Of a DNA stretch of 35,713 nucleotides, positions 20,574 to 28,268 are shown in pieces. Within the stretch, counting starts at the first letter, position 1. Each line of letters begins with the position of its first letter. The DNA is from an uncultured Clostridia bacterium (GTDB lineage: Bacteria > Bacillota > Clostridia > Oscillospirales > Acutalibacteraceae). The notes beneath the pieces were generated by a model. That model was not told where the DNA came from. It worked only from the letters and a program-made list of their open reading frames with translations, and ran no database searches. The stretch lies in contig CAMZEG010000004.1 in the NCBI GenBank assembly GCA_947305635.1, positions 1 to 35,713 on the forward strand. The letters are read 5' to 3'. The translations under genes and the position numbers were made by a program.

Positions 20574-20990
20574 ATGGCAAACGTACAGATGAAGGCCTAC
20601 AAGGTTCGGGAGCTGGTCTTTCAGAACAAGATTCAGGGCAAGGTGCAGCTCAAGCTTTCCAACAAGGTGTCGCACAACGTGCGCTACATGCAGCCCGACC
20701 TTTGCGAAGGGACGATGACCGTCGAGGTCTTCGACAAGGAAAAGCCCGACGTGCTGAACGTCAAGGCGACCGTGACGGGGCTGTTCCAGATCAAAAAACA
20801 GGTGGAAAAGGAATTCATCCATGTCGATACGTTCCGCGAGCTGTTCCCGTTCGCGAAAACGCTGATCACAACGGTCTCCGCCAACGCGGGGATCCAGCCG
20901 ATCATGGTGCAGGACGTGGATATCGAATCGCAGGAGATCTACCGCTTCGATCTGCCGAAGCGCCGCCCGAAAGAGGAGGATAACGCATGA
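20574..20990 (+). CDS. SecB-like protein-export chaperone domain protein
   Basis: FRELFPFAKTLITTVSANAGIQPIMVQDVDIE resembles the SecB LFPYAR...(F)P.L.L.PVNF region; about 138 aa. No search run. Confidence 0.6.
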   Translation: MANVQMKAYKVRELVFQNKIQGKVQLKLSNKVSHNVRYMQPDLCEGTMTVEVFDKEKPDVLNVKATVTGLFQIKKQVEKEFIHVDTFRELFPFAKTLITTVSANAGIQPIMVQDVDIESQEIYRFDLPKRRPKEEDNA

Positions 20991-21300: not shown

Positions 21301-21329
21301 TTGAATTTTAACGCTGTTTAGAGTATAAT
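21301..21329 (+). promoter_or_regulatory. Promoter of the DivIVA-like gene
   Basis: TTGAAT-N17-TATAAT. Confidence 0.75.
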
Positions 21330-21362: not shown

Positions 21363-21791
21363 ATGGCAAATCAGCTTTTTTCCACTCAGCCGGAAGGCTA
21401 CAATATTGAAGAAGTGGACCGCTACATCGAAATGCTGCAGGAGGAGTACCGCAACGCGATCGCCTGGGGCGAGGAGATGGAAGCGAAGTACCAGGAGATT
21501 GAAACCGCGCTTAAGGAAAACGGCATGTATTTCACGGTTCAGCCGGACAACAAGGACGAAGTGGTCGCGAGTGTGTTCATGCAGCTGACCGAAACGGTCA
21601 ACCAGACCAAGGCTGCCGCGCAGGAAAAGGCCGAAGAAATTGTTGCCCACGCGAACGAAAAGAGCCGCGGCATCGTACGGCAGGCGATGGAAAACTCCGT
21701 CCAGATCCGTACGGAAAACAATATGATTATGGATAATCTGAAGAGCATTCGGGATATGATTGAGGTCGTTTTGGAAAAAGGGATCCAGTGA
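21363..21791 (+). CDS. DivIVA-domain protein
   Basis: FSTQPEGYNIEEVDRYIEMLQEEYRNA matches the DivIVA N-terminal lipid-binding motif (GYxxxEVDxF), followed by coiled coil. Confidence 0.8.
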   Translation: MANQLFSTQPEGYNIEEVDRYIEMLQEEYRNAIAWGEEMEAKYQEIETALKENGMYFTVQPDNKDEVVASVFMQLTETVNQTKAAAQEKAEEIVAHANEKSRGIVRQAMENSVQIRTENNMIMDNLKSIRDMIEVVLEKGIQ

Positions 21792-21831: not shown

Positions 21832-24156
21832 TTGGCACCTTACAGACCGAAAAGCCTGGACGAGCTGAATCAGGCCTACGATAAGACCAAGGCGCAGCAG
21901 CCGGCGAGCCGACCCGCGCCGCAGGCGCAGCAGCAGCCGGCCCGTTCAATCGCCGACACGGTGCGTGCGCGCGAAAATAAGGAAGCGCTGTCCGGCGCGG
22001 TAGACGACTTTATCAAGCAGTTTTCCGCAAAGGAGCCAGCGCCGAGCGCCTATACCCAGGCGCAGCAGATGGCGTCGACGCCCGCCGAAACGGCCGCCGA
22101 AGAGCTCGCGAAGGAGACGAACCGCGCGTTTGACGACGTGCTGTCGTTCCCGGAGATCAAGATGACGCCGCCGGAACCGCCGGCCTACCACCGCTATACC
22201 CACGAGGAAGCCCCGATCAAGGAGGGCGACCTCTCCGGTCTGATGGACGAGTATATCGCCGTGATGACCGACCAGAACGGGGAAGAGGAAAACCGCCGGT
22301 CCTTCCTGCGCCGCCGCAAGGAGAGAAAGAAGAACCGCCAGCCGCAGCATTTGGACAGCGAGGCGTCCGGCGATCTGTTCGATCTGCCCGCGGCCGAAGC
22401 GCCCGCGCCGGCAGCGCCCCCGGTGGAAACACCGCCCGCGCCCGCGGCGACGCCGTATGTCGCGCCCGTGACGCCGGTTGCGGTTCCGTTTGAAGAACCC
22501 GTCGCGCCGGTGGAGATTCCGGTGGAAGAGCCTGTTGCGCCGGTCGAAATTCCGTTTGAAGAGCCTGTCGCGCCGGCTGAGATCCCGTTTGAGGAGCCTG
22601 TCGCGCCGGTAGAGATTCCGTTTGAGGAACCCGTCGCGTCGGTGGAGATCCCGTTTGAGGAACCCGTTGCGCCGGTCGAGATTCCGTTTGAAGAGCCTGT
22701 CACGCCGGTGGAGATTCCGTTTGAGGAACCCGTCGCGCCGGTCGAGATTCCGGTGGAAGAGACTGTTGCGCCGGTCGAGATCCCGTTTGAGGAGCCTGTC
22801 GTACCGGAAGAGATTCCGGTCGAAGAACCCGTCGCGCCGGTGGAGATTCCGGTCGAAGAGCCTGTCATTCCGGAAGAGATTCCGTTCGAAGAGCCTGTGA
22901 CACCGGTGGAGATTCCGTTCGAAGAGCCTGTGACGCCGGAAGAGATGCCGGTTGAGGAGCCTGTCATTCCGGAAGAGCCGCCGGTGGAAGCGCCCGCGCC
23001 CGAGCCGATCGTGCCGCAGGTGCCGGAATATACGCCGTATCGTTCGCCGCTGGAAGACCAGCCGATCGTCCCCGCGGCACCGAAGCCGAAGAAGCCGATC
23101 AATATGGAACCCGAGCCGGTCTTTGACCCGCACCGCCTGTTCAGCGACCTCGACGACGAGGAAGCGGAACCCGACGTGCTGGTGGAGCCGATCGGAGACT
23201 TTGCGCCGGAAGCGCCCGCGATCGAGGAAGAGATCCTGCCCGCGGCGGAAGCCTTCCCCGCGCCGGAGGAAGTCCCGGCCGAACCGCCTGTGCAGGAGTT
23301 CGAAGACGTTGTCAGCTACAGCGACGAGACGCAGGACGACCGCTTCACCCCGCAGGCCGAAGCCGAAGCGCCCGCAGAGGAGCCGGAAGCGCCCGCGCAG
23401 GAACAGCCGCAGGACGACGAGGAGCTTGACCTTGCTGCGCTGGATCTGCAGCAGGAGGTTGTGATCCGTCCGTCCAAGGTGAAGGTGTTCTTCAAGGTGC
23501 TCGTGACGCTGCTGATTTTGCTCAGCCTGCTCGCGACCGCGGCTGTCGGCCTGACGAAGCTGCTGAACATCAACACCGGCAAATCGGCGGTCGGCGACTA
23601 TTACTTCTTCGCCGTTTCGAACGATTACGCCAATGTGGACATCCACGGCGGCGACCTGATCCTTGCCAAGCGCAAGCTGCCGCTGGACGTCGGCGACCGC
23701 GCGGTCTATGTCGACCCCGACACCCGCTCGTTCTCCTTCGGCAAAAACGAGGCGAGCAGCGCTGACCCGGATCTGTACAACGCGCTGCTTTATAACCTGT
23801 CCGGCATTGTCGTCCGCGAAGAGAACGTCCTCGGCGTTGTCCAGACGACAGTTCCGCAGGGCGGCACCGTTGTCCGCGCCGTGCTGGCCAACTACAATAC
23901 ATACCTGCTCGTCTGCCTCGGCGTGTTCGTCTTTTTGCTGCTGATCCGCGTGATCTTCCTGCGCAAGAAGAGACGATACCTCACGATTGAGGAACTCGCG
24001 CAGCAGCAGGAGGCCGCCGCGCAGAAAAAGAGCAAAAAAGAAAAGCCCCAGAAGGCGAAGAAAGCGAAAAAAGAGTCCGCGCCGGCCGTAAAGCCCGCCG
24101 CGCCGGCCGCGCCGCCGGCAGGGGAAGAGACCGACCTGTTCAGCGACATTGACTGA
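21832..24156 (+). CDS. Long Pro/Glu-repeat protein with C-terminal two-TM SipW/S26-like (apparently inactive) signal peptidase domain
   Basis: 774 aa, TTG start. Disordered N-terminus, 16 x 11-aa repeats (VAPVEIPFEEP), then TM - GDYYFFAVSNDYANVDIHGGDLILAKRKLPLDVGDRAVYVD - TM - Lys-rich tail. Confidence 0.8.
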   Translation: MAPYRPKSLDELNQAYDKTKAQQPASRPAPQAQQQPARSIADTVRARENKEALSGAVDDFIKQFSAKEPAPSAYTQAQQMASTPAETAAEELAKETNRAFDDVLSFPEIKMTPPEPPAYHRYTHEEAPIKEGDLSGLMDEYIAVMTDQNGEEENRRSFLRRRKERKKNRQPQHLDSEASGDLFDLPAAEAPAPAAPPVETPPAPAATPYVAPVTPVAVPFEEPVAPVEIPVEEPVAPVEIPFEEPVAPAEIPFEEPVAPVEIPFEEPVASVEIPFEEPVAPVEIPFEEPVTPVEIPFEEPVAPVEIPVEETVAPVEIPFEEPVVPEEIPVEEPVAPVEIPVEEPVIPEEIPFEEPVTPVEIPFEEPVTPEEMPVEEPVIPEEPPVEAPAPEPIVPQVPEYTPYRSPLEDQPIVPAAPKPKKPINMEPEPVFDPHRLFSDLDDEEAEPDVLVEPIGDFAPEAPAIEEEILPAAEAFPAPEEVPAEPPVQEFEDVVSYSDETQDDRFTPQAEAEAPAEEPEAPAQEQPQDDEELDLAALDLQQEVVIRPSKVKVFFKVLVTLLILLSLLATAAVGLTKLLNINTGKSAVGDYYFFAVSNDYANVDIHGGDLILAKRKLPLDVGDRAVYVDPDTRSFSFGKNEASSADPDLYNALLYNLSGIVVREENVLGVVQTTVPQGGTVVRAVLANYNTYLLVCLGVFVFLLLIRVIFLRKKRRYLTIEELAQQQEAAAQKKSKKEKPQKAKKAKKESAPAVKPAAPAAPPAGEETDLFSDID
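22468..22995 (+). repeat. 33-bp in-frame tandem repeat, 16 units
   Basis: Units encode V(A/T/I)P(V/E)EIP(F/V)EEP; the register holds exactly for 528 bp. Confidence 0.95.
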
Positions 24157-24164
24157 GAAAAGAG

Positions 24165-24199
24165 AATACACCGTTCAACAATCGAACGGTGTATTTTTT
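24165..24199. terminator. Bidirectional intrinsic terminator
   Basis: AATACACCGTTC-aacaatc-GAACGGTGTATT followed by TTTT, between convergent genes. Confidence 0.88.
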
Positions 24200-28126: not shown

Positions 28127-28268
28127 TCGCGGCTGCGCCGCGAGCAGAAGTGCACAGTGCACAGTGGACAGTGCACAGAAAAAGCCACCCCGCGGGGTGG
28201 CTTTTTGCTGTTGACTAACGACTGACGACTAATGACTGTCGACTGTTGACTGTGCGGCTTCGCCGCAC
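28127..28268. repeat. Symmetric intergenic element: two GC hairpins, two heptad-repeat arms, central terminator
   Basis: TCGCGGC-tgc-GCCGCGA; 4 x TGCACAG-type heptads; AAAGCCACCCC..GGGGTGGCTTTTT; 6 x NYGACTR heptads; GTGCGGC-ttc-GCCGCAC. Confidence 0.85.
28179..28206. terminator. Bidirectional intrinsic terminator inside the element
   Basis: AAAAAGCCACCCC-gc-GGGGTGGCTTTTT. Confidence 0.92.

Follow-up and report, generated by a model that had tools for sequence, protein, structure and literature searches.

What becomes of a signal peptidase that has lost its active site, and why should its gene lie directly behind one for a DivIVA-domain protein? The question is raised by a gene at positions 21832-24156 of a stretch of 35,713 nucleotides from an uncultured bacterium of the Acutalibacteraceae (contig CAMZEG010000004.1, assembly GCA_947305635.1), here called the window. 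The host genome comprises 2.05 Mb and is 76% complete; the window lies on its contig 4. The product carries what is almost certainly the fold of S26B signal peptidases (SipW/Sec11) with the catalytic residues lost. That it works together with DivIVA is very probable. Whether it serves as a scaffold or chaperone for exported proteins is a matter of more balanced judgement.

Fold, catalytic residues and selection

The open reading frame (ORF; plus strand, TTG start) encodes a protein of 774 residues with the N-terminus LAPYRPKSLDELN. Relatives with ATG starts share this N-terminus, which backs the TTG start; going by these homologues, the frame is real. Positions 23476-23970 (residues 549-713) comprise a transmembrane helix, a β domain of about 85 residues and a second transmembrane helix, which is preceded by a short helix (residues 677-686). 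Basic residues border both transmembrane helices on the sides of the arm and the tail. By the positive-inside rule, the arm and the tail should therefore reside in the cytosol and the β domain outside the cell. An initial annotation of the sequence had recognised here the layout of S26B peptidases, and this is borne out by sequence profiles and by predicted structure.

Single sequences do not reveal the relationship. The window sequence gave no S26 match in searches of Pfam, NCBIfam and PDB sequences, and its domain scores no hit to TIGR02228, hence stays outside the curated SipW cut-off. The S26 link accordingly rests on profiles and fold. A Pfam match to SRTM1 (20.9 bits, cut-off 27) was dismissed as transmembrane composition. 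In 300 genomes of the family, a search brought to light homologues within the genus, a second set of dead relatives and true SipW, the latter with SGSM/TDSM and TH[KR] blocks. The corresponding profiles (A2 for the window clade, A3 for true SipW, A4 for the second dead group) matched each other at 98.3% (A2-A3), 99.0% (A4-A3) and 97.9% (A2-A4). With the transmembrane helices removed, the soluble part of A2 versus A3 gave 63.4; the best of 200 column shuffles reached 19.8 and the reversed profile 12.0. LexA-type S24 proteins form a sister family with the same fold as S26. It is SipW peptidases and such S24 proteins that the dead-clade-only profile A2 retrieves from 394 genomes of the order.

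AlphaFold2, run on 29 sequences, returned a model with a predicted local distance difference test score (pLDDT) of 91.7 and a predicted TM-score (pTM) of 0.75. As SipW rows might render this result circular, the prediction was repeated without any SipW, with only 7 dead-clade sequences; the pLDDT was 86.2 and the strand order unchanged. In Foldseek searches of the PDB, human Sec11A and Sec11C rank first two for both models, with expectation values (E) of 3.6e-4 and 4.1e-4, respectively, for the dead-clade-only one; the TM-scores to Sec11 are moderate (0.47-0.56). Next come LexA, UmuD, phage repressors and the dead SipA of Streptococcus pyogenes (4n31, E 1.2e-2, probability 1.00). The predicted structure thus has an S26 fold between two transmembrane helices, as is typical of S26B, and the failure of that fold to appear, which the initial annotation had allowed for, did not occur. 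Shared with SipW and Sec11 are also the GDxIxxK block and a conserved glycine before the last strand. The differences lie in the long cytosolic arm, the DivIVA partner and the active site.

At the active site, the loss of the SGSMEP serine block and of any THRIV-like block, as originally read, is confirmed. In two alignments SGSMEP faces NDYANV, precisely G-S-M with D-Y-A, which puts Tyr599 in the place of the catalytic Ser. TH[KR] faces FGK, with Gly637 instead of His, and the window clade has no counterpart of the loop that bears the Asp. The window protein, in short, lacks the catalytic Ser and His of S26B. The gene is present in 29 of the 30 genomes of the genus searched (L002 and L172 being counted once). 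In the Ser column, 21 of them have Tyr, 4 Phe, 2 Asp and 2 a gap; Ser itself does not occur there, and the catalytic His is found in none of the 29. A Ser/His or Ser/Lys dyad is kept by no member of the clade, in line with the first reading, which had proposed to look for one in homologues. More distant DivIVA-linked relatives keep Ser/His, as predicted by descent from an active peptidase.

Of course, catalytic residues could have migrated within a working enzyme, and polar residues do persist near the lost site, e.g., Lys638 beside Gly637. Lys638 is, however, not conserved; with no Ser or His in the catalytic columns and the missing Asp loop, this explanation is very improbable. Alternatively, the gene could be what is left of a lost SipW gene, functionless and decaying. 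The missing catalytic residues would fit, as would one genus member, L178, that looks split. Yet the ratio of non-synonymous to synonymous substitution rates (dN/dS) is 0.10 and 0.18 for the window compared with each of its two nearest relatives, and 0.21 for these relatives compared with each other, which contradicts decay. The frames are open in nearly all of the 29 genomes, the replacement by Tyr or Phe is consistent and the gene order is conserved. Decay is hardly credible and was rejected; by its dN/dS values, the gene is a conserved pseudoenzyme.

Some related proteins deserve mention. L016 (G006), which is fused to a DivIVA domain, may not be dead: its catalytic column still reads Ser, and one of two alignments places a Lys where the His would be. 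L018 and L024 (G229, G146) have SNAM for SGSM (Ser to Ala) with intact His and Asp blocks, and no DivIVA was found near them. They probably represent another dead form of SipW. SipW above the TIGR02228 cut-off occurs in only 1 of the 30 genus genomes; the host genome, at its 76% completeness, showed no such locus.

The DivIVA partner and a candidate docking motif

DivIVA is encoded upstream in 28 of the 28 genus genomes that have upstream DNA; L174, cut by a contig end, is not part of this count. In 27 of them the DivIVA frame ends -25 to +46 bases from the start of the arm frame, on the same strand. L178 also has it upstream, at a distance of 1244 bases from the frame that looks split. With a promoter-like site upstream and a stem-loop downstream, the DivIVA and pseudo-peptidase genes look like one transcription unit, apart from the upstream DUF1292 gene. 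In the consensus scan, the stem appeared solely on the minus strand; it may therefore act for the two converging genes alike.

The pairing extends to other genera. DivIVA precedes dead relatives in G015, G245, G467 and G485 and active ones in G327, G345 (twice) and G494; in G015 (27.7 versus 28) and G245 (18.6) the domain scores below the Pfam cut-off. Fusions occur in G006 and G047, where a DivIVA domain that passes this cut-off is joined to a degenerate S26 domain. Searches with the S26 domain brought up G015, G245, G327, the first G345 copy, G494 and the fusions; a DivIVA search turned up G467, G485 and the second G345 copy, which are weaker evidence of linkage. When ordinary active SipW loci were scanned with the same DivIVA profile, their flanks of about 1.5 kb proved free of DivIVA. 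Conserved adjacency and fusion place the window protein among DivIVA partner systems, and a functional partnership is very likely.

The active cases are instructive. Downstream of the DivIVA gene, G327, G345 and G494 carry a SipW above the TIGR02228 cut-off and proteins that resemble SipW-dependent matrix proteins of the BsaA family (best E values 1.5e-13 and 4.7e-12, none reaching the cut-off of that model). These operons suggest that the pairing with DivIVA is older than the loss of catalysis. In the tree, the window clade is supported at 98/93, the active DivIVA-linked clade at 99/96, and the fused lineage groups with the window clade at 89/85. The topology requires a minimum of four switches between active and dead forms; long branches limit the tree. 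A comparable arrangement is tapA-sipW-tasA of Bacillus subtilis, where SipW likewise stands with its matrix substrates; that operon, however, is devoid of a DivIVA gene, and the window protein is dead and has no TasA-like gene in sight nearby (PMC4551309).

The host genome also encodes S26A signal peptidases. The dead domain might regulate active signal peptidases by competing for or binding their precursors, or by pairing with the S26A enzymes. This is improbable: the subfamilies differ (S26A versus S26B), no link to S26A genes was seen, and the partnership with DivIVA would be left unexplained.

How could the two partners meet? The window protein starts with the motif region RPKSLDELNQAY, and PKSL opens the protein in every genus locus with an intact start. 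The pattern [KR][STKLR][LI]x[EDQ][LIM][ND]xx[FYM] occurs within the first 60 residues of 12 of the 497 ORFs of the loci compared, all 12 being armed SipW-type proteins (including 2 truncated copies of the window gene), a specificity that is suggestive only, because the pattern was derived from the counted proteins. L014 has the motif and no DivIVA neighbour in its short contig; L065, L030 and L131 are DivIVA-linked yet without a clear match. From the fused proteins L016 and L025 the motif is missing, which is what a substitute for a covalent link would lead one to expect. That the motif docks the arm on DivIVA has, in our estimate from these patterns, an even chance. In the second dead lineage, DYTVEDFTI or a similar sequence forms the C-terminus of several members; these ends and the C-terminal DLFSDID of the window protein are possibly another docking peptide.

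A related N-terminus, KSIQQLNQEF, is seen in an S26A signal peptidase of G476 (L132:6238-6870), which is encoded near a DivIVA gene and pilus-like proteins. Its catalytic Lys position resembles Arg by eye.

Possible function of the dead domain

Few dead signal peptidases have been described. SipA of S. pyogenes has an S26 fold with an intact groove, in which Ser/Lys are changed to Asp/Gly, and is essential for pilus polymerisation (PMC4049620). By its 4n31 match and its catalytic columns, the window protein qualifies as a pseudo signal peptidase of this kind, again in a Gram-positive, the similarity detected being one of fold only. In contrast, SipA belongs to a pilus cluster, without DivIVA and without a long arm. 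SpsA of Staphylococcus aureus is likewise an inactive type I signal peptidase homologue and lacks two catalytic residues (PMC12445088). It differs in being a Ser/Lys-type relative beside the active SpsB, and DivIVA is not mentioned for it (PMC12445088).

The following mechanism can be envisaged. The gene encodes a protein with two transmembrane helices and a catalytically dead S26B domain, predicted to lie outside the cell, as homology and predicted structure show. It very probably pairs with the DivIVA encoded upstream, to which adjacency and fusions link it, presumably by physical contact, and the conserved N-terminal motif on the cytosolic acidic arm probably provides the dock. DivIVA proteins collect at negatively curved membrane and recruit partners (PMC8872289), so that docking would gather the protein there, and septa or poles are the probable sites of the domain. 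Having kept its fold around the lost active site, it would, by analogy with SipA, hold or present exported polypeptides uncut, and thus act as a surface scaffold or chaperone. The initial annotation had put forward a scaffold or sensor role tentatively, without sight of the DivIVA partner, the fused forms and the active relatives in matrix-protein operons, which now lend it context. The protein probably derives from DivIVA-linked active SipW-like peptidases, as in the BsaA/TasA-like operons; these operons support such a descent, which the tree is too weak to establish. For this explanation as a whole, we see the arguments for and against as about balanced; that the outer domain binds an exported polypeptide, taken by itself, falls a little short of an even prospect.

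The main rival is a division or pole adaptor of the MinJ type. Here, DivIVA and the membrane anchor would matter, while the outer domain would be just a knob or a contact for division proteins, with no exported ligand. The same adjacency and fusions speak for it, the sequence of the outer domain drifts strongly across the genus, and MinJ of B. subtilis is a known membrane-integral partner of DivIVA (PMC8872289). MinJ itself has six transmembrane helices and a PDZ domain and no S26 domain (PMC8872289). Purifying selection on the outer domain does not suit a mere knob, and the linked relatives are repeatedly SipW-type, the active ones beside BsaA-like substrates, which points to export rather than division. 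An adaptor without exported ligand is a possibility to be taken seriously, if a doubtful one.

The scaffold or chaperone role faces objections of its own. The tree joins the dead clades weakly and with long branches. The window showed no BsaA/TasA-like gene, and no signal peptide of the SipW type passed the cut-off in the host genome (76% complete); the ligand in the window lineage may therefore be a different one. The docking pattern stems from the proteins in which it was counted. Finally, we infer the ligand, the localisation and the DivIVA contact alike.

Beyond the window, one may tentatively imagine a module throughout the order: a K-S-L-x-E-L-N-x-x-F/Y tag would dock active or dead signal peptidases on a dedicated DivIVA paralogue, and export or surface-fibre assembly would thereby take place at poles or septa only, the enzyme of the window lineage now being a pure scaffold. 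Dead signal peptidases and membrane partners of DivIVA are already known; their combination, DivIVA with SipW, is possibly a new module. No literature linking DivIVA with SipW-type proteins or TasA was found, subscription journals being little covered. Little is settled about how secretion and surface assembly are positioned in bacterial cells. With its active kin near matrix genes, a dead SipW-type domain that adjoins a pole marker or is fused to one offers a direct, testable link between cell pole and export, and the short candidate tag might predict further clients of this DivIVA subfamily.

Features and neighbouring genes

Table 1. Features of the pseudo-peptidase locus, in positions of the window
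Feature	Position	Strand	Basis
Sigma-70-like promoter TTGAAT-17-TATAAT before the DivIVA gene	21301..21329	+	10/12 matches; consensus match only
DivIVA-domain protein, 142 residues, directly upstream	21363..21791	+	Pfam DivIVA 43.2 bits, cut-off 28
Whole gene: N-terminal motif, acidic Pro/Glu arm, first transmembrane helix, pseudo-S26B domain, second transmembrane helix, Lys-rich tail	21832..24156	+	
RPKSLDELN, conserved N-terminal motif, candidate DivIVA-docking peptide	21844..21870	+	pattern count; binding putative
33-base repeat, 15 copies (VAPVEIPFEEP), variable acidic spacer	22472..22965	+	
First transmembrane helix, residues 550-577	23479..23562	+	AlphaFold helix, hydropathy
β domain, S26B/S24 fold, residues 590-674, predicted extracellular	23599..23853	+	profiles, AlphaFold, Foldseek
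Tyr599 at the catalytic Ser position	23626..23628	+	two alignments, genus comparison
Gly637 at the catalytic His position	23740..23742	+	two alignments
Second transmembrane helix, residues 688-709, followed by LRKKRR	23893..23958	+	hydropathy, AlphaFold
C-terminal DLFSDID, kept in most of the genus	24133..24153	+	genus comparison
Terminator-like stem-loop after the pseudo-peptidase gene	24165..24195	+	-21.5 kcal/mol, z -6.8

The 33-base repeat sits in the long arm before the first transmembrane helix and is absent from the same-genus homologues L008-L011. The near neighbours of the gene encode DivIVA, a DUF1292 protein, a SecB-like protein, a DUF218 protein and acetate kinase. Pilus components are not among them; the far ends of the window lie outside this annotation.

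The SecB-like protein (20574-20990, plus strand) scores 33 bits with Pfam SecB (cut-off 26) and stays below the NCBIfam cut-offs. Its gene adjoins those for DUF218 and DUF1292, and the trio is also found near the pair in L041. At 28149-28253, two short tandem repeats, with units of 7 and 14 bases, lie near each other.
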